The notes under the pieces: model-generated
Told to the model about the DNA's origin: nothing
The model's database searches: none
What the model saw: only the letters and a program-made list of their open reading frames with translations
Translations under genes and position numbers: made by a program
Assembly (NCBI GenBank): GCA_902800025.1
Contig: CADCDA010000008.1
Coordinates: forward strand, 1 to 64,000
Direction of reading: 5' to 3'
Source: an uncultured Erysipelotrichaceae bacterium
GTDB taxonomy: Bacteria; Bacillota_I; Bacilli_A; RFN20; CAG-826
DNA: 64,000 nucleotides
In this document: in pieces, positions 20,262 to 36,351 of the stretch
Position numbering within the stretch: the stretch's first letter is position 1
Layout of the letters: every line of letters starts with the position of its first letter

Positions 20262-20960
20262 TTATTTCTTGTTTTTTGATATTGTCTCTAATAAAACCAT
20301 ATAACTCTTATAAAGCATCTCCTTCATATGATTGATATATGATTCATATTCATACTCTTTCATCTTGTAATAGAAGCCTGATGCTTTTCTAATTTCTAAC
20401 GTCGTCTTAGAAGAATAGATTCCAGTAACAAAAGCATCAAGAGGAAGATATAAAGCGTATTCTAATCCAAATTTCATGAGTAGGAATTCTAATAAGATAT
20501 TTGATATCCTTCCATTGCCGTTTTTAAATGGATGAATGCACAAGAATTGAAGGGTAAATTTAAATACATCATCAAAGTCTTCTTTGCTTGGATTATTTAG
20601 ATGGGAAAAGTTTTTGCAGAGCTCTTCCATTTCCGAAGGGGTTTTGTCTTTAGAGGCAGTGACATAAAACTTATCACCCGTATAAACTTGAATATTTTCT
20701 TTTTTAAAAGAAGCATTCTCATCGTTAGTAAGAATTGCGTAAAGCTTAATAATATTCTTTGTATTAATTTCTAAGTCTTTATTTTCTCTTAAAAAAGATA
20801 ACACTCGAACTTCGTTGCTATTTTTAAGATCGCCATAATTCTCTCCTCGAATAAAAGAAGTGTGAGTTAATGTAAAAAGCAAAGATAAATATTGTCCATC
20901 TTTAAAATATGACGGGAAGTTTTTCTTAACTTCTCGATCAAGATTTAAAAAATAATCCAA
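20262..20960 (-). CDS. Fic-domain protein with altered inhibitory motif
   Basis: This 232-residue protein has the Fic catalytic motif HPFKNGNGR with the following helix ISNILLEFL. Fic enzymes usually transfer AMP from ATP to a protein hydroxyl. Class II Fic proteins carry an N-terminal (S/T)xxxE(G/N) autoinhibitory motif. Here the corresponding place reads TSFIRGEN, with Arg where the Glu is expected, so autoinhibition may be lost or different. The flap region (FYVTAS) is present. The gene starts 1 bp after the end of rtcB, so it is translated from the same mRNA. The target is unknown. Confidence 0.9.
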   Translation of the reverse strand: MDYFLNLDREVKKNFPSYFKDGQYLSLLFTLTHTSFIRGENYGDLKNSNEVRVLSFLRENKDLEINTKNIIKLYAILTNDENASFKKENIQVYTGDKFYVTASKDKTPSEMEELCKNFSHLNNPSKEDFDDVFKFTLQFLCIHPFKNGNGRISNILLEFLLMKFGLEYALYLPLDAFVTGIYSSKTTLEIRKASGFYYKMKEYEYESYINHMKEMLYKSYMVLLETISKNKK

Positions 20961-20961
20961 A

Positions 20962-22080
20962 CTATAGTTTTCTATCTTCCGTTCCTCGATATGAATAAAT
21001 TGGTTTAATGATATCAGTTACTTCCACTGTATCTGTAATTGCTTTTAAAATGGTGTCCATATTTCTATAAGCATAAGAAATCTCATCGATATTAGATTTG
21101 CTTAAAGATGTCGTATAGACATGTTTCATGCTTTCTTGATATTCTTCGAATGAGTATGATTCTCTAGCTTTTTTTCTCGTTAACACTCTTCCTCCACCAT
21201 GAGGAGCGCTATTATTCCAGTCTATGTTTCCTTTACCAATTCCTAAAATTGATCCTTCTCTTGCGTTAATGGAAATCACTACTTTCTCTCCTTTTAACGC
21301 TGAAATTGCACCGTGACGAACAATATGGTCTTTTTTAGAAGTAAAGTGATGACAGCTATCAATATGTTCTTTTTCGACCCATCCCATCTTATTTAAGATG
21401 AAATCAGTCATATACTTTCGATTATATTCGCAAAGTTCAACAAAAAACTCAACGTCATGAAGATAATCGTCTTTATCATTTCCATTTAATATGAGTTCAA
21501 AAGGAGAACAATCATCTAAACTCTTTCCAATATTAGATGCTGCTTTATTTTTATAATAGTTAATCATTACTCTTGAATAATGCTCAAGACCATTATGAAC
21601 AACTAAGAATAAGTCTCCTTTTTCATTTTCATCCAATTCAATAAAGTGGTTACCCCCGCCAAGAGTGCCTAATAAATTAGGCCACCTTACAAATTGTTTA
21701 ATATCTGAATAACATTTTAATTTTGAAAAATCATATGGGTAAGCTGGTTCAAAATATGCTTGATGATCTCCAGCAGGGATTTCATGACACACTTTATCTA
21801 ACTTAACAAAGTCGATATCTTCCTTTTTGATATTGATTTTGGTCGCTCTTATTCCGCACCCTGCATCTTTTTCCATACATAAAATGATTGAGTTTCCTAG
21901 TTCCATTGTAAAACCAGTAACACTACCATTTCGATTTGTATGAGCGTCAGGCATGATGCACACTTTTTGATTTCTAATCAAAGGATTATCGCATATTGCT
22001 TGGATATCATTAAAAGTGCATTCATCAATGTCATCGGCATAGCAAAAAGCGTTTGTAGCTTTCCCCTTTATCAATATCAT
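20962..22080 (-). CDS. rtcB: RtcB-type RNA ligase
   Basis: This 372-residue RtcB family protein has PDAHTNRNGSVTG at the N-terminus, KDAGCGIRA with the metal-binding cysteine, GTLGGGNHFIE, VVHNG, and APHGGGRVLTRKKA containing the guanylylated histidine. RtcB joins RNA with 2',3'-cyclic phosphate or 3'-phosphate ends to 5'-OH ends using GTP and Mn. The length fits the short bacterial RtcB2-like forms. It sits between a double-glycine-type peptide gene (16 bp upstream) and a Fic gene (1 bp downstream), and opposite a reverse transcriptase gene. The neighbourhood suggests RNA repair linked to defence or stress, by inference. Confidence 0.92.
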   Translation of the reverse strand: MILIKGKATNAFCYADDIDECTFNDIQAICDNPLIRNQKVCIMPDAHTNRNGSVTGFTMELGNSIILCMEKDAGCGIRATKINIKKEDIDFVKLDKVCHEIPAGDHQAYFEPAYPYDFSKLKCYSDIKQFVRWPNLLGTLGGGNHFIELDENEKGDLFLVVHNGLEHYSRVMINYYKNKAASNIGKSLDDCSPFELILNGNDKDDYLHDVEFFVELCEYNRKYMTDFILNKMGWVEKEHIDSCHHFTSKKDHIVRHGAISALKGEKVVISINAREGSILGIGKGNIDWNNSAPHGGGRVLTRKKARESYSFEEYQESMKHVYTTSLSKSNIDEISYAYRNMDTILKAITDTVEVTDIIKPIYSYRGTEDRKL

Positions 22081-22096
22081 AAAAATATTTAGTTAA

Positions 22097-22336
22097 TTAT
22101 TTAGATCCGACGTATGGATTGTTAGTTCCACCACAGCCACCGGAAACAGCTTTGAGTTGCTCTTGTGTGAGTTCGACTTCGCCTTCTCTGATTTGTTCAT
22201 AAATCATCTCAGCGCCTCTGTCAGAAATTTCAAAGCCTTTACCATCGAGGTATTCTTTAACTTCCTCAACGGATTCAGATTCTCTCATTCCTTCGAGTAA
22301 TTCAGGGGTTAAATCTTTGATTTGTAATCTTGCCAT
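22097..22336 (-). CDS. Nif11-like leader peptide with Gly-Gly site and 12-residue core
   Basis: This 79-residue peptide has an acidic helical Nif11-like leader (about 67 residues) ending in ELTQEQLKAVSGG, the double-glycine type site cleaved by C39 peptidases. The remaining core is CGGTNNPYVGSK. ATG 22336 has AAGGAGG at good spacing. No modification enzyme is adjacent; the only C39 exporter in the window is at 38597-40765. The peptide is the first gene of a peptide-rtcB-fic operon with a long structured leader. A secreted signal or toxin is possible. A Nif11-like regulator that is never processed is the alternative. Confidence 0.75.
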   Translation of the reverse strand: MARLQIKDLTPELLEGMRESESVEEVKEYLDGKGFEISDRGAEMIYEQIREGEVELTQEQLKAVSGGCGGTNNPYVGSK

Positions 22337-22360
22337 AAATTCGGCCTCCTTATACAGAAT

Positions 22361-22486
22361 GAAGAGAAAACGATAATGAGGTAATATAAGTGAGACTCGC
22401 GATAGCCTGCTTTATCTAGATGTTATCTATAAAGCGAGAATCACTTACTGGATACAGGCATACATATTAAATGTATTTTCCTCTTC
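22361..22486. ncRNA. Structured, pseudoknot-capable RNA between the RT gene and the peptide operon
   Basis: The outer strands GAAGAG-AAAA (22361-22370) and TTTTCCTCTTC (22476-22486) pair with one bulge. Inside, TAAGTGA (22387-22393) pairs with TCACTTA (22441-22447) and CTCGC (22396-22400) with GCGAG (22434-22438), capped by TTTAT-CT-AGAT-GTT-ATCT-ATAAA. GCCTG (22405-22409) can pair with CAGGC (22455-22459) as a pseudoknot. ATACAT-ATTAA-ATGTAT forms a further hairpin. A TATAAT box on the minus strand (22500-22495) would make it the 5' leader of the peptide operon. A retron-like separate RNA from the plus strand is the alternative. Confidence 0.6.
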
Positions 22487-22598: not shown

Positions 22599-24785
22599 AT
22601 GAATAAACTTGTATTTCCCGAAGTTCCTCTTCACTATCACTTAAAGAACGCCATTCTTTCAACTTTCGATTTGGATGAAAACCTTTTAGTTAGTTCAATT
22701 AAAGAAGAAGACTATCAAAAATATCTCATCATTAGAGGGGATGGAGATTACGTTTCTTTAAACGAAGAACACCCAATTAAAAACAGAATTGTAAAAGTTT
22801 TTTTCGAACTTACAAAAAGAGTAATCGAAAACAATAAATTACAATCAGTCAAATACCATCACCCAAAGATTTGGCTTTTTATCTATGAAAATGACCATCA
22901 CGAAGAAATAGCAAAGTTAGTTATTCAAAGTGAAAACATTTATCCTTATGATTCTAAAGAAATCGCCATTAATTTTTCTGGTAATAAAGTCAAAGAAGAA
23001 CAAATTAAAAATAAACCACTATTAGATTATTATGATTCATTAATGCCGTTTTTAAATAAAGAGCAAAAAGAGTTCGTCTCTTCAATCGCTAAAAAACTAG
23101 GGTATTTCAATTTTCAATTAGAAGATTATGAAGCAGACGATTTTGAAATCATCGCACCATGCTGTAAAGATATTTCATTATTCAATAATGAATATGATGA
23201 CATTTTAGTAATCACGCCTTTTATAAATGTTGGTCCTATCAAAAAGCTATTAGCGAATAAAAAAGAAGGTAGAAAATGCGTCGTTCTTTCTCGACCGTCA
23301 ATCATTGAATCGCTCATTATAAGTGACGTTAATAATGTTAGTTTTATTTCTTCAGATATCAGTGATAAATTCATTCACTCTAAAATCTATTTGGTAAGAA
23401 AAGGAAATAATTGGGACTTATACGCTGGATCGATGAATTTATCTGATTATTCAATTGAAAAAAATATCGAAGCAATGGTCCATCTTAAAAATGTTAAGGG
23501 AATAGACACTATTGAATCTTTCCTTTCACGCTTTTTAGGAATAAACGAAGAAGAAATCAATAACTATCTTAATCAGTATTCTAATGAATACAAAAATGAA
23601 AAATATAGTCCCGTATTTCTTGGCGCTTTAAAAATCAATACGAGAATTAATTATCTTAAAAAACAAGTCTCTAATAAAAAACATGATGAAGATTATATTC
23701 ATCGAATCACTTCTTATTTATTGTCATATAAATCTACTATTGATTTAATCGAGCTTATCGAAAACAAAAAAGAAGTAATCCCGGTTAGAAAAGAAATAGT
23801 CAAAAATGGAAAGAAACGCTATATTTATTGTTTTCCATTTGAAATCAATGTCACTTTAGGATTAATAAATTATTCGCTTCACCAATACGATTATTTGTTC
23901 TCTAAAAATGTTTGTTTACATATCGCTGATCGAAGTGCGACAAGCGCCTTTATCAAACTACATGAAACTAAAAAACTTAATGAATATTACTTTTTCAAAA
24001 CCGACATCCACGATTTCGATCCATCGATAAATAAAGAGATCCTCGTCGATAAAATCGACACACTTTTGAATTTCGATAAATCGTTATCTAATTTCCTAAA
24101 ATTAATTATCAACGAGAAAAGATACTATAAAGAAAACGATAATGAAGTTTACGAAGATAATGTAATGCATCAAACCGGCATCCCACTCGCAGGCTTCTTT
24201 GAAAACGTTTATTTATATGATTTTGATTTCGTCTTTGATAAAGCGCCTTTATATATCAGGTGTGGAGATGATGTATTAATCGCCTCAAAAAATCAAAAGG
24301 AAATTGAATCATATAAAGATATCATCATAAAGATGATTAAAGAACGTAAATTAGAACTTAACGAATCTAAAACAAAAGTGTTTAAGCCAGGAGAAAAGCT
24401 AAACTATCTAGGCTGGGAAATCAATAATGGAGAAATCGATTTTTCTGAAGAATCTCTTAAAAAGATTGAAGAGACTATCAAAGCTAAGACAAAAGTTTTA
24501 CTAATCATGTATGGAAAGAAAAAGATTCCAAATGTGTTAAGGCTTCCTACTGTTATAAAATATGTTAATTATTTCCAAAAGACAGACTTCTTTGTTGATA
24601 GTTTTAAAGTCATTACAACCACTAACGGTTTAAAAAGAATTGACTCCAAAATAATGGATTTAATTAGAACTGTCATAAGCGGCAAAACCGGCAATTCAAA
24701 ATACAAAATAAAATATAAGCCAATCCAAGCCTTTGGCTATAAGAGTTTGGTTAATCAATATTACGAATTTATTTCTAGGAAATAA
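22599..24785 (+). CDS. PLD-reverse transcriptase fusion protein
   Basis: The protein has 728 residues. An N-terminal region of unknown fold (1-190) is followed by a phospholipase-D-like domain with HSK (His260, Lys262) and GSMNLS. The reverse transcriptase spans about 400-660: motif A is KTDIHDFDPSI, the GIPLAGFFEN segment matches the GxPxG motif, LNYLGWEI is the later palm/thumb motif, and the catalytic box is CGDD (555-558) instead of the usual YxDD. A basic C-terminal thumb follows. It faces the peptide-rtcB-fic operon across a structured RNA. Retron VTG-type signatures were not found. A defence RT of the unknown/Abi groups is my best guess. Confidence 0.85.
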   Translation: MNKLVFPEVPLHYHLKNAILSTFDLDENLLVSSIKEEDYQKYLIIRGDGDYVSLNEEHPIKNRIVKVFFELTKRVIENNKLQSVKYHHPKIWLFIYENDHHEEIAKLVIQSENIYPYDSKEIAINFSGNKVKEEQIKNKPLLDYYDSLMPFLNKEQKEFVSSIAKKLGYFNFQLEDYEADDFEIIAPCCKDISLFNNEYDDILVITPFINVGPIKKLLANKKEGRKCVVLSRPSIIESLIISDVNNVSFISSDISDKFIHSKIYLVRKGNNWDLYAGSMNLSDYSIEKNIEAMVHLKNVKGIDTIESFLSRFLGINEEEINNYLNQYSNEYKNEKYSPVFLGALKINTRINYLKKQVSNKKHDEDYIHRITSYLLSYKSTIDLIELIENKKEVIPVRKEIVKNGKKRYIYCFPFEINVTLGLINYSLHQYDYLFSKNVCLHIADRSATSAFIKLHETKKLNEYYFFKTDIHDFDPSINKEILVDKIDTLLNFDKSLSNFLKLIINEKRYYKENDNEVYEDNVMHQTGIPLAGFFENVYLYDFDFVFDKAPLYIRCGDDVLIASKNQKEIESYKDIIIKMIKERKLELNESKTKVFKPGEKLNYLGWEINNGEIDFSEESLKKIEETIKAKTKVLLIMYGKKKIPNVLRLPTVIKYVNYFQKTDFFVDSFKVITTTNGLKRIDSKIMDLIRTVISGKTGNSKYKIKYKPIQAFGYKSLVNQYYEFISRK

Positions 24786-27303: not shown

Positions 27304-29052
27304 TTATGCTCCTTTATTAAATTTGATTTCAAACACTGTATTATTTAAGTTTAACACACGCATGTACGATATTTTATCAGTAAGTCCCATAATGAGTTTA
27401 ATTCCACTTGTGGAATAATTCTCGCTTTCATCAAACTCATATTTAGTTGGATCAAATGGAACTCCATCATCTCTTATTCTTAATAATAACGTATCATCGG
27501 TGACTTTAAGATTAACATCAATATAATTGTGCTTCTCTTTTTTATAACCATATTCGACGATATTGTCCACCATTTCTTCGCAAGCTAAGCCAACAATCTG
27601 GCTCTCTCTATTTGGAATATTATGGTCTTTTGCAAACTCGATGATTTGTTCTGAGACAGCAGAAGCGTTTTTCATTTCGTTATCAAGAGAAACATCAAAC
27701 GATTCATAATCGAGCTTCTCAACCATGTAAATGCCTTTGTAATTCTTCTTTTTGTTATAGAAAATGAGGAAGATATAAACAATAATGACTGTCGCTACTT
27801 CATTAGCAGCACTTGCAATACAATATCCTAATAATCCATGAGTGTGTAAAAGCACCAAAGTGAGAGGCAAAACAATTACCGATTCTCTTAATATAACAGT
27901 GAGAATCGAAGGGACATTCTTATCAATCGTTGGATAATAATTCGTTGAGAATTTATTGATCTCATATGGTAAGAAGGAGATGAGATAGACCCAAAGAATC
28001 ATATTGAGATATGTTGAATCTCCAGTTTCGGTATAACCGAAAATCGCACAGTAAGCATTCGGGAAGATTAAAATGAATAGTGAAATCAAGACTGTCACTA
28101 TTAATGTTAACCAATAGATTTTCCTCGCCACTGATTTAAGCGAATAATAATCTTTTTCTCCATAGAAAATTCCACATAGATTTGGAATGATGTTTAAGAT
28201 TCCTCCGCATAGTAAATCAAAAAGGAACACCATGTTAGAAATAAGTCCGTATAACACTAAGTCATATGAAGATAAAAGTTTTCCAATAAAGATATTAGCG
28301 ACTAACATCTGAATTGCGGTTAATAATAAATTAAGTGTCGTAGTTGCGGAAGCTTTAAAGACATTCTTTCCACCACAACCTTTAATTTTAAAGGTTAGAG
28401 TTAACATTCTCTTTTTATTAATAAAATAGAAGATAACAGCAATACAGCCAACTAAATATCCTGCTCCAGTTGATAAAGCCGCTCCATACATTCCCATATT
28501 GAATACTTTAATGAATAAAACTTCTAAGCCAACTTTTGCAATATTAGAAATGATATAGAAGATTGATGATAAACGAGGATTATTATCAACCGCCATAAAT
28601 GAACCAATTAATAAAGCAAATGTAATAATTGGATCAGTGAGAAGATACATATAGACGTATGGATAAGAGTATTCCAAAGATGCTTCTCCAAATAAAGCTG
28701 CTAAAGGTCTAGAAGCAAAGAAAGAAATAAGAGCAAAGACAATTGAAATTGACATTCCAACAATCATTGAGAAAGAAAATGCTTTTTTCGCGCCAACAAT
28801 ATCTCTTTTTCCTAAAAGATTAGCAACAACAATCGCTCCACCAACACCAATAGCAAAGCCTGGAATTTGAACGATATATAAAATTGGCAAAACTAAGGAT
28901 GATGCACTAAGAGCGTCGTTACCGATGAAATTACCAACCAAAATACCATCAACAAGTGAACCAAATTGCATAGCAAAAATCATCAAAATTGATGGAATGA
29001 GGTACATGATAAACTTACGATTAATAAGTTTCGAATTTCTTTCTAAACTCAT
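27304..29052 (-). CDS. MATE transporter fused to an RsbW-like ATPase domain
   Basis: The protein has 582 residues. Residues 1 to about 430 form a MATE-family efflux transporter with about 12 helices (LIPSILMIFAMQFGSLVDGI, GVGGAIVVANLLGKR). Residues about 445-582 form a HATPase_c_2 domain like RsbW/SpoIIAB, with VGLACEEMVDNIVEYGY, IRDDGVPFDP and SGIKLIMGLTDKI. The start ATG overlaps the NRPS stop as ATGA, so export of the NRPS product is the likely task. The fused kinase-like domain suggests transport or signalling is controlled by the adjacent STAS and phosphatase. Fusion is seen directly; the regulatory link is inferred. Confidence 0.9.
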   Translation of the reverse strand: MSLERNSKLINRKFIMYLIPSILMIFAMQFGSLVDGILVGNFIGNDALSASSLVLPILYIVQIPGFAIGVGGAIVVANLLGKRDIVGAKKAFSFSMIVGMSISIVFALISFFASRPLAALFGEASLEYSYPYVYMYLLTDPIITFALLIGSFMAVDNNPRLSSIFYIISNIAKVGLEVLFIKVFNMGMYGAALSTGAGYLVGCIAVIFYFINKKRMLTLTFKIKGCGGKNVFKASATTTLNLLLTAIQMLVANIFIGKLLSSYDLVLYGLISNMVFLFDLLCGGILNIIPNLCGIFYGEKDYYSLKSVARKIYWLTLIVTVLISLFILIFPNAYCAIFGYTETGDSTYLNMILWVYLISFLPYEINKFSTNYYPTIDKNVPSILTVILRESVIVLPLTLVLLHTHGLLGYCIASAANEVATVIIVYIFLIFYNKKKNYKGIYMVEKLDYESFDVSLDNEMKNASAVSEQIIEFAKDHNIPNRESQIVGLACEEMVDNIVEYGYKKEKHNYIDVNLKVTDDTLLLRIRDDGVPFDPTKYEFDESENYSTSGIKLIMGLTDKISYMRVLNLNNTVFEIKFNKGA

Positions 29053-32000
29053 ATATCAGTCCTCTCAAAGAAACCAAGTGTTTCTAGCGATTCGATCGCA
29101 TTTCTTAAATAGTGATAGTCAGTAATTGGCCACTTATATCCTAAATGATATAAAGACTTATTAGTGAATTCGTTATCAGACAAGATGAAGGAGTGAGTGT
29201 GCATATCACTTGATGAATAGGAAATAAGAGAAGAAACGAGCATGCTCTTAGAATCATCCATCATCATTTCTTTCATCGATTCAAGGAACTCGGCGTCACT
29301 CACAACTTTGATATCAAATCCGAGTTCATTAAGGACATAAATAATATCACCCATTTCCACCATATGAGAGTTCGCTGAATGGAAAATAGTGAACTTCTTT
29401 GGGGTTTTAGCGAGTAAAATGATAGTTTTTGCAACTTCATCAATTGGTGAGAAGTCAACAGTGATATCCATCGAATTAACTGGGAATTTATGTAAAACTG
29501 CATATCCTTTTAAATCACGCATAAAGCCGTTGGTAATCGAGTTAGCTTGGAATTCACCATCGCTATTTCTTCCCATTAAGTTACCAACTCTAATGACCTT
29601 GGCGTCAACGCCTTCTTCGGAAGCTTCAAGAATTGCTTTTTCAGCGTTAAACTTCGAATGGACATATTTATTAGAGACATCTTGACCAAAGTCGAGCATG
29701 TTCTCTTTCATCCTAAAGGATGGTTCAAATTTATTATCGATATTTTCTCCAGCAACAGATAAAGTGGAAATTTGTACAATACGACACTTCTTTTCTCTAG
29801 CGATTTCAATTAAATTCTTCACACCACCAACATTAACTCTTTCAATAATATCGTCATTAGCGAAGTGTTTAACAATCGCTGCTGAGTTGATGATTGTGTC
29901 AAATTCATACGCTTTGAGTTTATCTTTTAAGGTTTCATCAGTGACATCGCCGTCCACCACTTTGACATATTTTTCAATTTCTTCAGTTAGTGGAGAATCA
30001 AAGTAATAAGCAAGTAAACCTAATAGTCTATCTTTAGCGTCAAGTTTACCTCCTCTAATAAGAGCGACAACATTAATTTCTTGTCTTAATAATTCTCTTA
30101 AAATGTGAATTCCTAAGAAGCCAGTTCCGCCAGTAAGAAGAACACTCTTAATCTCGTGATCCTCAATGATATCGTTAACTTCAGCAACGACGTTATGGGC
30201 TAACGCTGGACTTTCCGTATGAGTTTCTTCGTGAACTTCACTAGTTTCGGCTGGTTCGCCATTAATCTCTTTAATGTGTTTTTCTAAATCTAAGATTGTT
30301 GGATAATCAAAGACATCTCCATAAGCGATAGGAAGATTAGCGTTTAACGCTAACATCGCAACTTTTGAAACACTTAAACTCGTTCCTCCCATCTCAAAGA
30401 AGTCATCATCAACACCGACTTTATCAGTGCCTAATGCTTTCTTAAAGATTTCAAGGAGTTGCTTTTCTAATTCATTAGATGCTTCTTTAATTTCTTTAGA
30501 AGTAACTTCAATTTTTGGTTCTGGAAGGGCTTTCTTATCAACCTTTCCATTTGGAGTTAATGGAATCTTTTCAAGTTGCATCATCACTTTTGGAATCATA
30601 TAAGGAGTTAGGGATTTAGCCATATGAGCGGTTAAATCATCCTTATCAATTTCTTTAGAAGCGACAAAGTAAGCCGCTAAATAATCTCCATCTGTTGGAT
30701 TAGTTTTAACTAAGATGACACTTCGAGAAATATTTGGATAAGAGTTCAATACTTTCTCGATTTCATCGAGTTCCACTCTTAAGCCTCTTAATTTAACTTG
30801 GTTATCAAGTCGACCAAAGAATTCGATATTGCCATCGTTATTAAGTCGAGCTAAATCTCCAGTACGATATGCTCTATCACCAAAGACTTCGATAAATGAT
30901 TCTTTAGTTTTTTCAGGTAAGCCATAATATCCTAAGCCAACTGAATCACCAGCGATAGTTAAATCACCAATCGCGTTAGTTGGTAAGACATGACCTGCTT
31001 TATCTAAAATGTACACTTTGGTGTTACCAACTGGTTTACCAATCGTCATATATTCATCAACGACTGTTGAATAAGTACATGTAATTGTTGTTTCAGTTGG
31101 GCCATAACCATTATTGATTATCGCATTAACACCGAGTTTTCTTAATCTATTACATAATTCAATTGGAACGTTTTCTGCACCCATATCAAGAACTTTAAAG
31201 TTCTTTAAGGCTTCAACAAAGGCGTCAATATCAATAAAGTTAGAGACAAATGAAGGAGTCATAAACATGATATTGACTTTATTCTTTTTAAGAGTGTTCG
31301 CTAATAAGAGAGGATTTTCAATCTCTTCTTCGCTAGCGATAACTGCAGTATAGCCATGAGTTAAAGTAACAAACTCTTCTTGCAAAGAAGCATCGAATGA
31401 GAACGAAGCAAATGAACAGCCAACACAACTTTCACCGATATCACGATATTCTTTAGTGGCTAAGTTAGCTCCATCACTCACATAGTTGATGAGGTTGTGA
31501 TGAGAAATCATTACACCTTTTGGCTTTCCAGTAGATCCAGAGGTATAAATCATATATGCGAGAGAATCTAATGGAATCTTTCTATCTGGGTTATTATCTT
31601 TCTTCGAAAGAAGGATGTCTTCAATCGCGAAAGGAATAATTCCAGTCTTTTTCACTAAGTCTTGTTTTTCTTTTAAAATCTCTTTTGTTGAGATGATGTA
31701 TTTACTACCAGAATTAGTGATAATATATTCCACACGATCATCTGGATATTTTGGATCGATTGGTACAAACGCTCCACCTGATTTAACAATACCTTGTCTA
31801 ACAACATAGGCTTCGGCAATTCTAGGCATAAACATCACTACTGTTTGTCCGATTTCAACGCCTTTATCAATTAAAGTATGCGCAACTTTATTAGCGGCTT
31901 TATTGAATTCGTCATAAGTATATTGTCTATTACATCCAATAACTGCGACTTTATCTTTATTTTTAATAGCTTGTCTTTCCACTAGCACATTAGCGGTTAC

Positions 32001-35000
32001 TTGTTCTAAATCGACGTGAGTGGAATTTGTTTCATCGTATTTCTTTTTATCTTCCTTAGAAAGAAGTTCAATTTCAGAAATAGTTTTCTTAGTGATAAGC
32101 TCATTTAACACCATCTCAAACAAACGATTGAATGACTCGATTGTGAAGATGTTATAAAGCGCTTTATCCCATTCATAATGAGCGCGATATTTACCGTTTT
32201 CTAAGAAGATGTCTAAACCGAAATCACTCTTTGGAGTATCGCTTTCAAGTAGCACTGAAGATACTTTATATCCACCGATGTTATCAAAGACGAAATCATC
32301 TCCTTGATAAGCAAAGATAATATCTGCGGAGATATCGTAATCGTTAGCGATATCACCAAATGAATATAAATCATTTTCTTCTAAACCACTGAGAAGTTCT
32401 TTAGTCTCACTAAGTTTAGAAATAATCTGATCATTTTCTTGGTATTTGATAAACACTGGTAAAGTCTTAACTAACATTGAAACAGTGTTTATCATCTTTG
32501 ATGATTTTCTACCGTTATAGATCGTTGTGTATAGCGATTCATTCTTATATAAGAATTTAGATAGAGTGAAAGCAAAAGCGAAATTAAATAACGCATTATT
32601 TGTTAATTTGTTACTATCAACAAACTTCTTAACTTTTTCATTATCAAGTCCTAGTGAATAATCAACCGATTGAAGTTTAGATTCTTTTTCAACTTTCAAA
32701 TCTTTCTTTAAAACATATTCACCATCAACATCTTTTAAAACACCTTGATAGAATGATTTGGCTTTTTCTAATTTATCAGTCTTTAAGTCATTTCTTTCTT
32801 TTAAAGCGATTTCAAATCCAGTGTATGTTTCTTTAGAAACATCTTCGCCAGAATACGCTTTGTTGAGATCATTTAATATAATCGCTTCAGATGTTCCATC
32901 ACAAACAATATGATGGAAATCTAAGAAGAGATAATTTTCTTTTCCTTCATAGATTTCAATTCGATATAAACTATCGCCTAAAATAGAGAATGGTCTAACT
33001 AGCTTAGAAATATCGATTTCTTCTTTTTTGATTGTGACCACTGAAGGGGTTTCTTTTCTTGAAGCAACAATTTCTCCATCTTTATTCATCGATAGAATTG
33101 TCTTCAAATATGGATGAGCGTCGATAACTTTAATGAGTGCATCCTTTAATTTATTCAAATCGAGTTTTTTATCCAGCTTGAATAAATATGGAATGTTGTA
33201 ATTCGTGGAATTAACTTTAGAAACGCATTCAACAAAGATACCTTCTTGGGTTTTACTAAGTGGATATTCTTCTAATAATTCAAAAGTTTCATCATCTTGT
33301 TTATTAGAGAGGAACTTCGCTAAAGCTTCAATGGTTGGATTATCTTTCAAATCTCCATTTTCAACTGTCTTTCCGTATTTCTTTGATAAGAGGATAACAA
33401 GTCTAATTGAAGAAATTGAAGTTAAACCAACATCAAAGATGTTATTAGTGACGCCGAATTGGTCATGGCCAATAACTTCTTTTAATAAATCAAAGATAAT
33501 CTTTTCGTCTTCATTACGAGGAGCGACAACTTCTTCTTGTTGAATTTCTGGCATTGGTAAGGCTCTCTTATTAACCTTTTGGTTTTGGTTAAGAGGAATC
33601 TTATCAATTTGCATTGTGTAGGCAGGGACCATATAAGGCGGCTTCTTGCTTCTAATGAATTCGTTGAGTTCTTCAACGTTAATCTTTTCATCACTTACTA
33701 CGTAAGCAACGATAAACTTCACTCCACTTGGATCAGTGAAATCTTTGACTGTCGCATCTTTGATTTTTGAGAATTCACGGATTACTTTTTCAACTTCAGA
33801 AAGCTCAATTCTAAAGCCTCTAATCTTTACTTGTCCGTCTTTACGTCCGATAAAATCAACTTTTCCATCTGGAAGAAGTCTAACAATATCGCCGGTTTTA
33901 TATAATCTTTGATACTTTTCATCTTTAGTGAACCAGTTAGTTAAGAAAGCTTCACTATTTTCTTTTTCTCTATTTAAATAGCCTCTTGCTACTTGTGGTC
34001 CAGAAATATAAAGTTCACCACTAACTAGAGTTGGTAATCTCTTTTTATTCTTATCTAGAACATAAATCTTGTAATCAGATAAGGACTCACCAATAGGAAC
34101 TCTCGCGTATAATTTGTCCACCAATTGACGAGTGCAGAATACCGTACCTTCGGTAGGACCATAGAAATTATAGAATTTAAATCCTTTTGGTGGTTCGATT
34201 GGAACGAGTTTTTCTCCACCAACCCCAAAGACTTTAAGTGATTTTGGATGAATTTCACTAGCGAATTGACGACCAACCTGAGTAGTAATGAAACTATGAG
34301 TAATTTCTTTTTCATCAAAGTACTCACCTAATTCAATTAAATTGAGTCTCATTTCATCTGGAATGACATAGACACATCCTCCACTAGTGAGAGTTGGATA
34401 TAAGTCCATCATATCGGCATCAAAGCCATAGGAAGCATAAGCGCTAACTCTACTCTTTGAATCAAGTTTAAATTCATTACGATAATATCTTGTAAAAGCA
34501 AAGATATTGCCGTGTTCTAACATAACTCCTTTTGGTAAACCGGTTGAACCAGAAGTATAAAGCATAATGAACATATCTTTTGGTTCTGGTTTATTTTTAA
34601 TAGGAGTGTCATCTTTAAATGATAATAACGAACTGACTAACACTTCTTTTCCATGGAAGTCATCAATAAGTCCTTCTAAATCATCATCTCTAATTAAAAC
34701 AATCGCCCCGGAGTCCTTAACCATGAAAGAAAGCCTCTCTTTTGGATAAGAAGGATCTAGAGGTTGATATGCCGCTCCTGTCTTAATGACTGCTAAAGAG
34801 GCCAATACAATGTATTCTGATTTATTGATTAAAATCGAAACAACCTTTTCTTTTTTGGCGCCAAGTTTAATTAACTCATTAGCGATTCTTGTTGTGATTT
34901 CATCAACTTGTTTATAAGTGTATTCTCTATCCTTAAAAACAACCGCTAAGTTATTTGGATATTTTTTAGCCGTTTCTAAGAAGTCATCTAAAATTGTGCG

Positions 35001-36269
35001 ATTATCTTCTAGATAAGGTGCATCAATAACGTTAAATGATTCAAGTAACTCTTCTTCTTTTTTATTGACGAGATTGATATCGTCTAAATTCTTTTTGACT
35101 GTAAATTCTTTTAGAATAATCTCAAAGAGAGTAATGAGTTGTTCCATCGTTTCTTCGTTATATAAATCGGAACGATATTCTAACCAGATGACATAGTCAT
35201 CGTTTAATCGATGGAGTTCAATTGAGAGTTTTTCTTTGCCATCTTTTCTAAGTAGAGGAGTAACTTCAATTTCTTTTCCATTTAATACTCCTTTATAGAA
35301 ATAATCACCTTGATATGCGAATAAAATACTCGCGGATAGTCCAAAGTCTTTGCTTAACATCGAGAATGGATAATCTAAATGTTTAACACTTTCAACATTC
35401 TCTTTATTTACTTGGATTAATAAATCTTTAATAGACCCGCCTTCAAAATGAGTGAAGAATGGGAATGTTTTAACATAACTACCAAAGCTCTTTTTTACCC
35501 CTTCACTTCTTGCGTTATTAACGGTTAGGAACAAAGCGTTCTCATCCATGTTAAACTTCGCTAGTAAATAACTAAAAGCTGCTAGGAAGAACGAAGATGT
35601 TTTAATCTTTAAAGGTTTTGTGATTGATTTAACATCTTTATCACTAATAGAAATTTTTCTTCTGATATTTTGATATGAAACTTTTTCTTCAAGCTTGTCT
35701 TCCACTATTGTTGAATCTGTTTCAACATCACCGACTAATTTTTCAAAATAGTCTTTCGATGATTGATATTCTTTTTTAGCGAGAGATTCGCTTTCTTTTA
35801 AAGCATAGTCATTCGCGGTTTCTTTTTCATTTTGGAGTTCTTTTCCTTCTAACGCGAGGAAGAAGTCGTCGATAAAGAGTTTTAATGATGTACCATCCAT
35901 TAAGATATGATGGAAATCAAAATAGAAAACAAAATTATCTTTTACTTTGTAAAGTTTGAATCTATATAGATGATGATCGAGAAGTTCGTACGGCAAAGAT
36001 TTTATCTTTAGTTCTTTGACTTCTTCACACTCAAGCTTAATCTCTTCTTTTTCAATTCTTTTAACAATCATTCCTTCTTCATTAGTGGATAACACTGTAA
36101 AAAGGTATGGATGAGCATCAAGCACTTTCTTAAGAGCGGTCTCAACTTGCTTTAAAGAAACATCTTTTCCAAGATTGACCGTATTAGCGAGATTATAAGC
36201 ATCTCCGCTTTCCAAAGAAGAAAGATATAAGCCTTCTTCACTCTTACTTAGTGGATAATAATTACTCAT
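29049..36269 (-). CDS. Two-module NRPS with terminal reductase (C-A-T-C-A-T-R)
   Basis: The protein has 2406 residues from ATG 36269, which has GGAGG eight bases upstream. Domain order is condensation (FHHILMDG near residue 120), adenylation (LYTSGSTGLPKGVM, YGPTEGT, YKTGD), carrier (GLTSISS), condensation (FHHIVCDG), adenylation (IYTSGSTGKPKGVM, YGPTETT, YRTGD), carrier (GGTSLS) and NAD(P)H thioester reductase (GGTGFLG, YVHSKFNAE). By-eye specificity pockets are about DAMFGGFVF and DAQFDGGIT; I do not assign substrates. Such enzymes release dipeptide aldehydes that often cyclise to pyrazinones; gut Firmicute examples inhibit proteases. The leading C domain may accept an acyl starter. No phosphopantetheinyl transferase is in the window. 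Confidence 0.95.
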   Translation of the reverse strand: MSNYYPLSKSEEGLYLSSLESGDAYNLANTVNLGKDVSLKQVETALKKVLDAHPYLFTVLSTNEEGMIVKRIEKEEIKLECEEVKELKIKSLPYELLDHHLYRFKLYKVKDNFVFYFDFHHILMDGTSLKLFIDDFFLALEGKELQNEKETANDYALKESESLAKKEYQSSKDYFEKLVGDVETDSTIVEDKLEEKVSYQNIRRKISISDKDVKSITKPLKIKTSSFFLAAFSYLLAKFNMDENALFLTVNNARSEGVKKSFGSYVKTFPFFTHFEGGSIKDLLIQVNKENVESVKHLDYPFSMLSKDFGLSASILFAYQGDYFYKGVLNGKEIEVTPLLRKDGKEKLSIELHRLNDDYVIWLEYRSDLYNEETMEQLITLFEIILKEFTVKKNLDDINLVNKKEEELLESFNVIDAPYLEDNRTILDDFLETAKKYPNNLAVVFKDREYTYKQVDEITTRIANELIKLGAKKEKVVSILINKSEYIVLASLAVIKTGAAYQPLDPSYPKERLSFMVKDSGAIVLIRDDDLEGLIDDFHGKEVLVSSLLSFKDDTPIKNKPEPKDMFIMLYTSGSTGLPKGVMLEHGNIFAFTRYYRNEFKLDSKSRVSAYASYGFDADMMDLYPTLTSGGCVYVIPDEMRLNLIELGEYFDEKEITHSFITTQVGRQFASEIHPKSLKVFGVGGEKLVPIEPPKGFKFYNFYGPTEGTVFCTRQLVDKLYARVPIGESLSDYKIYVLDKNKKRLPTLVSGELYISGPQVARGYLNREKENSEAFLTNWFTKDEKYQRLYKTGDIVRLLPDGKVDFIGRKDGQVKIRGFRIELSEVEKVIREFSKIKDATVKDFTDPSGVKFIVAYVVSDEKINVEELNEFIRSKKPPYMVPAYTMQIDKIPLNQNQKVNKRALPMPEIQQEEVVAPRNEDEKIIFDLLKEVIGHDQFGVTNNIFDVGLTSISSIRLVILLSKKYGKTVENGDLKDNPTIEALAKFLSNKQDDETFELLEEYPLSKTQEGIFVECVSKVNSTNYNIPYLFKLDKKLDLNKLKDALIKVIDAHPYLKTILSMNKDGEIVASRKETPSVVTIKKEEIDISKLVRPFSILGDSLYRIEIYEGKENYLFLDFHHIVCDGTSEAIILNDLNKAYSGEDVSKETYTGFEIALKERNDLKTDKLEKAKSFYQGVLKDVDGEYVLKKDLKVEKESKLQSVDYSLGLDNEKVKKFVDSNKLTNNALFNFAFAFTLSKFLYKNESLYTTIYNGRKSSKMINTVSMLVKTLPVFIKYQENDQIISKLSETKELLSGLEENDLYSFGDIANDYDISADIIFAYQGDDFVFDNIGGYKVSSVLLESDTPKSDFGLDIFLENGKYRAHYEWDKALYNIFTIESFNRLFEMVLNELITKKTISEIELLSKEDKKKYDETNSTHVDLEQVTANVLVERQAIKNKDKVAVIGCNRQYTYDEFNKAANKVAHTLIDKGVEIGQTVVMFMPRIAEAYVVRQGIVKSGGAFVPIDPKYPDDRVEYIITNSGSKYIISTKEILKEKQDLVKKTGIIPFAIEDILLSKKDNNPDRKIPLDSLAYMIYTSGSTGKPKGVMISHHNLINYVSDGANLATKEYRDIGESCVGCSFASFSFDASLQEEFVTLTHGYTAVIASEEEIENPLLLANTLKKNKVNIMFMTPSFVSNFIDIDAFVEALKNFKVLDMGAENVPIELCNRLRKLGVNAIINNGYGPTETTITCTYSTVVDEYMTIGKPVGNTKVYILDKAGHVLPTNAIGDLTIAGDSVGLGYYGLPEKTKESFIEVFGDRAYRTGDLARLNNDGNIEFFGRLDNQVKLRGLRVELDEIEKVLNSYPNISRSVILVKTNPTDGDYLAAYFVASKEIDKDDLTAHMAKSLTPYMIPKVMMQLEKIPLTPNGKVDKKALPEPKIEVTSKEIKEASNELEKQLLEIFKKALGTDKVGVDDDFFEMGGTSLSVSKVAMLALNANLPIAYGDVFDYPTILDLEKHIKEINGEPAETSEVHEETHTESPALAHNVVAEVNDIIEDHEIKSVLLTGGTGFLGIHILRELLRQEINVVALIRGGKLDAKDRLLGLLAYYFDSPLTEEIEKYVKVVDGDVTDETLKDKLKAYEFDTIINSAAIVKHFANDDIIERVNVGGVKNLIEIAREKKCRIVQISTLSVAGENIDNKFEPSFRMKENMLDFGQDVSNKYVHSKFNAEKAILEASEEGVDAKVIRVGNLMGRNSDGEFQANSITNGFMRDLKGYAVLHKFPVNSMDITVDFSPIDEVAKTIILLAKTPKKFTIFHSANSHMVEMGDIIYVLNELGFDIKVVSDAEFLESMKEMMMDDSKSMLVSSLISYSSSDMHTHSFILSDNEFTNKSLYHLGYKWPITDYHYLRNAIESLETLGFFERTDI

Positions 36270-36351
36270 AGGAATTTCCTCCAAAAAAAGATTAGTAAAA
36301 AAGTCGTTAAATATTATTCAATGACAACACTAATCAAATTCATTTGCTTAC

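Follow-up and report, generated by a model that had tools for sequence, protein, structure and literature searches.

Organization of the locus

The window, i.e. the whole stretch of 64,000 nt that was analysed (contig CADCDA010000008.1, positions 1 to 64,000 of the forward strand; assembly GCA_902800025.1), originates from an uncultured Erysipelotrichaceae bacterium and encodes a phospholipase D (PLD)-like domain fused to a UG26-type reverse transcriptase (RT), hereafter PLD-RT, and, on the other strand, a Nif11-like leader-type peptide, an RtcB-family RNA ligase and a Fic protein (Table 1). The 126-nt element between these divergent genes, read on the minus strand, is a real pseudoknotted RNA conserved in evolution, and most probably the non-coding RNA (ncRNA) partner of the neighbouring RT.

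PLD-RT, the RNA, the leader-type peptide, RtcB and Fic constitute a recurrent gut-bacterial cluster. The RT, peptide and RtcB genes are found together in three loci of rumen and abomasum Bacilli (L012, L014 and L015) and in Butyrivibrio AE2015 (L016), which encodes PLD and RT in two adjoining genes, while the cassette of genome G131 is spread over two contigs (L125 and L007). The peptide gene is conserved in all six PLD-type loci.

Table 1. Features of the RNA element and its flanking genes in the window, and RT-5 RNAs at other loci (L numbers).
Feature	Position	Strand	Remarks
RT-5-like structured RNA, whole element	22361–22486	−	Fold z, covariance model, covariation
P1 5' strand GAAGAGGAAA (outer stem, 10 bp)	22477–22486	−	Partner 22361–22370; 100% of P1 cells paired in ten copies
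P1 3' strand UUUUCUCUUC	22361–22370	−	Alternative partner: Shine-Dalgarno region of peptide gene
P2 hairpin AUACAU-UUAAU-AUGUAU (6 bp)	22460–22476	−	Double changes in 5/6 columns, ten copies
Pseudoknot 5' strand GCCUGUA	22453–22459	−	Partner 22405–22411; compensatory double changes in 5/7 columns, ten copies
P3 5' side: GUAAGUGA, 2-base internal loop, CUCGC	22434–22448	−	Fold and covariation
P3 3' side: GCGAG, 2-base internal loop, UCACUUAU	22386–22400	−	Fold and covariation
P4 hairpin UAGAU-AAC-AUCUA	22417–22429	−	In PLD-type copies; double changes in all 6 columns
P5 hairpin GAUA-AAGCAGGC-UAUC	22401–22416	−	8-base loop in 10/10 copies; 97.5% paired
Unpaired loop AUUACCUCAUUAUCG between P3 and P1, candidate RT template	22371–22385	−	Repeat AUUA-CCUC-AUUA; unpaired in fold
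TATAAT −10 box, 7 bases before P1	22494–22499	−	TTGCGT at 18-base spacing
Shine-Dalgarno AAGGAGG of peptide gene	22345–22351	−	Sequence
Nif11-like leader-type peptide, 79 aa, GG-C motif near C terminus	22097–22336	−	TIGR03798, E 0.0047, below cut-off
RtcB-family RNA ligase, 372 aa	20962–22080	−	PF01139, 3e-32; other cassettes 44–53% identical
Fic protein, HPFxNGNGR motif	20262–20984	−	PF02661, 7e-12; homologues in L014, L015 and L016
PLD-like domain fused to UG26-type RT, 738-aa open reading frame	22599–24785	+	Divergent from RNA
RT-5 RNA beside stand-alone UG26 RT, L010	2711–2840	−
RT-5 RNA beside stand-alone UG26 RT, L011	1289–1418
RT-5 RNA beside stand-alone UG26 RT, L127	1205–1331
RT-5 RNA beside stand-alone UG26 RT, L129	1355–1485

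Architecture and conservation of the RNA

The minus strand of the element has a lower folding energy than its shuffled sequences (z −3.5), and its parts follow from 5' to 3' in the order P1, P2, the single-stranded GCCUGUA, the 5' side of P3, P4, P5, the 3' side of P3, an unpaired loop and the 3' strand of P1. The two-part P3 (8 bp and 5 bp, separated by a 2×2 internal loop) carries the hairpins P4 and P5, and the 8-base P5 loop AAGCAGGC holds the 3' strand of the pseudoknot, which comprises six base pairs with GCCUGU in the window (GCCTG/CAGGC), one of them G-U. All the helices named in the original prediction are present on this strand, although P3 is 8+5 bp rather than 7+5 bp, and P4 and P5 had been overlooked.

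Six PLD-type copies, from the window (W), L125, L014, L012, L015 and L016, were compared, with the helices partly aligned by hand. A DNA similarity search of 96 relatives returned the window itself, a 26-base chance match and nothing else. A structural alignment of four copies (A8), hand-made with N padding, has 94.9% of its cells paired, against 34–47% with the partners slid, and double changes in 30 of its 47 pairs. Across these four loci the loop motif CUCAU.A..CG is conserved. The covariance model built from A8 has matches, among 279 genomes of the order, in exactly the five genomes carrying PLD-RT, which bears out the suggested connection of the RNA with the RT; no case of a PLD-type RNA without the RT was found in this set. 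The fifth copy (G131), absent from the model, was recovered blind (E 2.9e-7), with the peptide-RtcB genes on one side and the N-terminal half of the RT on the other. With five copies, 94.7% of the cells are paired (33–49% with the partners slid), compensatory double changes are seen in 32 of 40 pairs, and covariation scores 0.873 compared with 0.312 in shuffles; RNAalifold gives a nearly identical structure on this alignment, itself fitted to the model beforehand.

A descriptor covering the entire architecture, composed after these copies had been seen, matches five of the six PLD-type copies and none of 1000 shuffles of each, L125 being missed owing to a single C-A pair in its pseudoknot. The Butyrivibrio copy (L016), whose parts follow in this order too and which has a P1 of 10 bp and a pseudoknot of 7 bp with different bases, is found by this descriptor (0/1000 shuffles) and is not detected by the covariance model (4.8 bits), so its membership is based on architecture. 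In a set of ten copies (the six of the PLD type and four of RT-5, aligned manually in helix register), P1, P2, P3b and P5 are 97.5–100% paired and the pseudoknot 94.3%, the double changes in the latter including GC/AU, CG/UA, UA/CG, GC/AU and others, while P1, P2, P3, P5 and the pseudoknot each score above all 1000 shuffles in covariation. Compensatory changes and presence in syntenic loci, whose absence had been named as evidence against a structured RNA, were both found, and the pseudoknotted RNA first proposed from the window is real.

Relationship to RT-5 RNAs and stand-alone UG26 RTs

The RT domain of the window, which contains the conserved catalytic aspartates, matches RT_UG26 best (1e-71), the next RT family being UG17 (9e-21), which corresponds to DRT10 (DRT, defence-associated reverse transcriptase). 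Stand-alone UG26 RTs of about 400 aa, without a PLD domain, occur in the same order and class (L009, L011, L010, L127/L128 and L129) and match RT_UG26 at 1e-135 (L011) to 1e-159 (4e-159 for L010); the weaker score of the window RT thus indicates a divergent branch. In the literature searched, no report on the function of UG26 RTs was found.

Directly upstream of the stand-alone RTs, on the same strand, is an RNA with the order P1-P2-pseudoknot-P3-P5 (8-base loop) and an additional hairpin P6 (present in L010, L011, L127 and L129), and no peptide or RtcB gene was seen at these loci. All four RNAs tested were identified by Rfam as RT-5 (RF03026; 52–83 bits, cut-off 45.7), and the sole RT-5 match among 156 genomes of the family is in G169, which carries a stand-alone UG26 RT. 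The RT-5 consensus includes the P5 hairpin and a GCCUGCG complementary to its loop UUGCAGGC, whereas the structure line of RF03026 shows none of the pseudoknot, P1 and P2, all three of which were found in the RT-5 copies. The window RNA shares with RT-5 the order of P3 and P5, the 8-base P5 loop (UUGCAGGC in RT-5) with a 5' strand able to pair with it (GCCUGC in RT-5), the outer P1, P2 and pseudoknot, and the UG26-type RT as neighbour. It differs in having P4, which is not evident in canonical RT-5 RNAs, and the conserved CUCAU.A..CG loop, and in lying before a peptide gene on the strand opposite the RT, i.e. divergent instead of co-directional.

Run unfiltered on the canonical loci, the PLD-type model yields six weak matches, three of which, including the top one, are at the RT-5 position and on its strand. 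Rfam 15 reports only tRNAs in the window, a permissive Rfam search of the cassette copies gave nothing relevant, and the window RNA fails the RT-5 gathering cut-off that the four stand-alone UG26 loci pass. The original remark that the RNA matches no known riboswitch agrees with Rfam missing the window RNA; the closest family, RT-5, is reached only via relatives. The window RNA is accordingly taken to be a divergent RT-5 relative, outside RF03026 as that model defines the family. RT-5, a family of unknown function, thereby gains a concrete partner in the UG26 RTs, its structure is extended by P1, P2 and the pseudoknot, and a divergent branch missed by Rfam is revealed.

RtcB is encoded in every complete cassette, which, together with a pseudoknotted RNA containing a conserved single-stranded stretch, would suit a self-cleaving ribozyme whose ends are joined by RtcB into a circularised leader; this is very improbable, as canonical RT-5 copies are found in loci where no RtcB was seen and Rfam gives no ribozyme match.

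Strand and leader position

On the strands given, G-U cells outnumber A-C cells 16 to 1 in the ten copies (6 to 1, p 0.06, in the PLD-type copies alone), which, together with the TATAAT box, agrees with the minus strand originally proposed. Comparable hexamers lie 0–11 bases before P1 in the other copies, and judging from these promoter-like sequences the transcript probably starts at P1; a stricter promoter scan does not list the TATAAT promoter. The RNA is co-directional with the peptide, RtcB and Fic genes and ends just before the peptide ribosome site, and is the 5' leader of this operon, as had been predicted.

The outer inverted repeat beside an RT had also been likened to the a1/a2 ends of a retron msr-msd RNA, which would be read from the plus strand, and this strand folds too (z −2.95). 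However, RT_UG26 beats RT_II-A, which we take from its name to be a retron-type model, by about 60 orders of magnitude; the RNA, instead of forming an msr-msd on the RT strand, is encoded on the other one; the minus strand is favoured by the G-U pairs; and the related RNAs belong to RT-5. A retron is thus exceedingly unlikely, and this part of the original prediction is abandoned.

Proposed role of the RNA

As the same RNA architecture is found upstream of stand-alone UG26 RTs, and the PLD-type RNA co-occurs with PLD-RT, the window RNA is regarded as an RT-associated RNA, from which we infer RT binding, templating, priming and a part in phage defence. The RNA of ordinary UG26 loci would have been moved, in the PLD-fused variant, from directly upstream of the RT to the opposite strand, where it begins the peptide-RtcB-Fic transcript. 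The RT may bind the scaffold of P1, P2 and pseudoknot and use as its template the unpaired loop between P3 and P1, bounded by P3, in the manner of DRT9 and DRT10 with their ncRNAs; by this analogy, it appears fairly likely that the RNA serves the RT as template. The resulting cDNA or ribonucleoprotein could act with, or control, the PLD domain, the peptide, RtcB and Fic, phage defence being the probable purpose. What UG26 RTs synthesise becomes a directly testable question.

The ncRNA of DRT9 lies upstream of its RT. DRT2, DRT9 and DRT10 are class 2 UG RTs whose ncRNA is both scaffold and template (PMC12039810, PMC12483538, PMC12489045, PMC12632851). The DRT10 ncRNA, with a length of 137 nt, is located upstream of the accessory gene and has its template after a stem-loop, where an A-B-A' repeat resets the template (PMC12632851). 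DRT10 (UG17 RT, SLATT and ncRNA) would be the nearest parallel for the proposed mechanism: the ncRNA is similar in length and equally upstream of an accessory gene, it has a central stem with smaller stem-loops and an unpaired region after a stem-loop, and UG17 is the second-best family of the window RT. In contrast, the window RT is of the UG26 type and fused to PLD, the accessory genes are those of the peptide, RtcB and Fic, and a Pfam scan found no SLATT among the cassette genes. DRT9 and DRT2 likewise combine a class 2 UG RT with a structured adjacent template ncRNA, pseudoknotted in DRT2, whereas their template sequences are unlike the window and the available portions of the papers report no PLD, RtcB or Fic (PMC12039810, PMC12483538, PMC12489045); the DRT9 ncRNA, as described there, has 188 nt and six stem-loops.

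The window loop contains the candidate A-B-A' repeat AUUA-CCUC-AUUA, from which the predicted cDNA repeat would be GAGGTAAT, the complement of AUUACCUC, and the two repeat halves change C/U in concert between L014 and L012. Such a template repeat is striking by eye and remains a weakly supported prediction.

Several points weigh against the RNA being partner and template of the RT. RF03026 gives no match to the window RNA up to E 10, the extra 3' hairpin P6 of RT-5 is missing from it, and the PLD-type copies number only six, in alignments partly hand-made. The template-repeat statistics of the six loci give p 0.16 for a repeat anywhere in the loop and p 0.013 for one anchored at its start, the latter post hoc. 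The L016 copy is located between rtcB and the peptide gene, away from the RT, and in all six PLD-type loci, even this one, the RNA directly precedes the peptide ribosome site, as expected of a purely cis-acting translational switch of the peptide gene, in which a formed P1 leaves the ribosome site open and an opened P1 lets its 3' strand cover the site. Blocking P1 sequesters the Shine-Dalgarno sequence in W, L125 and L016, and in L014, L012 and L015 the competing pairing prevails from the outset. In five of the six loci, the ribosome site has its best complement, alone or tied, in the P1 3' strand. However, the window copy, the exception, ranks only 30th of 122 in this respect, and RT-5 RNAs also have a P1 3' strand rich in pyrimidines, so that the complementarity of this strand to the ribosome site may be incidental. 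Since, moreover, the same architecture precedes UG26 RT genes without such a peptide, and the PLD-type RNA was never found without the RT, a switch acting purely in cis is unlikely. A riboswitch, formerly the leading idea, was dropped once this architecture had appeared before peptide-less UG26 RTs; for all its anti-Shine-Dalgarno potential, the window RNA is probably not a riboswitch.

As a non-exclusive extension of the partner role, the RT-bound ncRNA may also gate translation of the peptide, which would be switched on or off by RT binding or reverse transcription. Formation of P1 and pairing of its 3' strand with the ribosome site exclude each other, and such a dual role would unite the co-occurrence with the RT, the RT-5 architecture and the anti-Shine-Dalgarno pairing; as it makes more assumptions than needed, it is considered possible but not probable.

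The PLD half and a possible fate of the proposed cDNA

The PLD half of PLD-RT matches the ZacB profile (5e-33) and contains two HxK...GSxN-like motifs by sequence. In the AlphaFold model, which has low confidence (pLDDT 63), this half (window 22599–23640, plus strand) aligns best to structures of tyrosyl-DNA phosphodiesterase 1 (TDP1; Z 13.4–14.8, rmsd 4.0–5.0 Å over 261–286 residues), but with just 12–16% identity and with other PLD folds and phospholipases D close behind (Z about 12), so that the likeness to TDP1 is a prediction from the fold model. The fold matches on the RT side were left uninterpreted because of the low confidence. The C terminus of PLD-RT is rich in tyrosine and conserved (GY-SLV--YY).

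Supposing that the RNA is indeed the template of the RT, the PLD half may release the cDNA from a protein primer, which is attractive because DRT9 and DRT10 are protein-primed. In the fullest, rather speculative form of this scheme, which we consider improbable as a whole, the RT would write a protein-linked, possibly repetitive cDNA from the loop between P3 and P1, the TDP1-like PLD domain would cut it off its protein primer, and the peptide, RtcB and Fic would handle or respond to the product. To our knowledge, an RT that makes and resolves its own protein-DNA adduct is a combination not found in any described DRT; if true, PLD-RT would do both and would be a self-contained DNA-writing system.

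Low-identity contig matches (L017–L041) were rejected as copies of the cassette, as they belong to a different PLD-helicase cassette. They are ZacB-like PLD-domain relatives in Lachnospiraceae and other Clostridia, in which, among eight loci inspected, the PLD gene adjoins a gene for a helicase-like protein of about 1000 aa in all eight and a gene of about 400 aa in seven.

Distribution and neighbouring genes

No description of a cassette of PLD-RT, RNA, peptide, RtcB and Fic was found in the literature search. Viral contigs contained no relative of PLD-RT, and RtcB relatives in these contigs were set aside as too generic, while the phage and plasmid collections contained no full-length relative of either PLD-RT or the stand-alone UG26 RT.

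In the Nif11-like peptides of the cassettes, GG(x)C is followed by a variable stretch at the end, as in precursors of ribosomally synthesised and post-translationally modified peptides (RiPPs). No gene for a dedicated transporter or a C39 peptidase was noticed near the window peptide gene. A radical-SAM/SPASM-like gene (L016 4416–5801, minus strand; assigned by eye), reminiscent of RiPP maturation, adjoins the Butyrivibrio cassette and was not seen among the listed genes of the window and L014 cassettes. An alpha/beta-hydrolase-like gene (by eye) adjoins stand-alone UG26 RTs in two genera (L010 746–1477, minus strand; L011 530–1264, plus strand). Elsewhere in the window, a 2411-aa protein resembling non-ribosomal peptide synthetases (29049–36284, minus strand), with a reductase-like C terminus, is encoded next to a MATE-type transporter (all these names by eye), and a family scan places a SpoIIE-type phosphatase near this gene.
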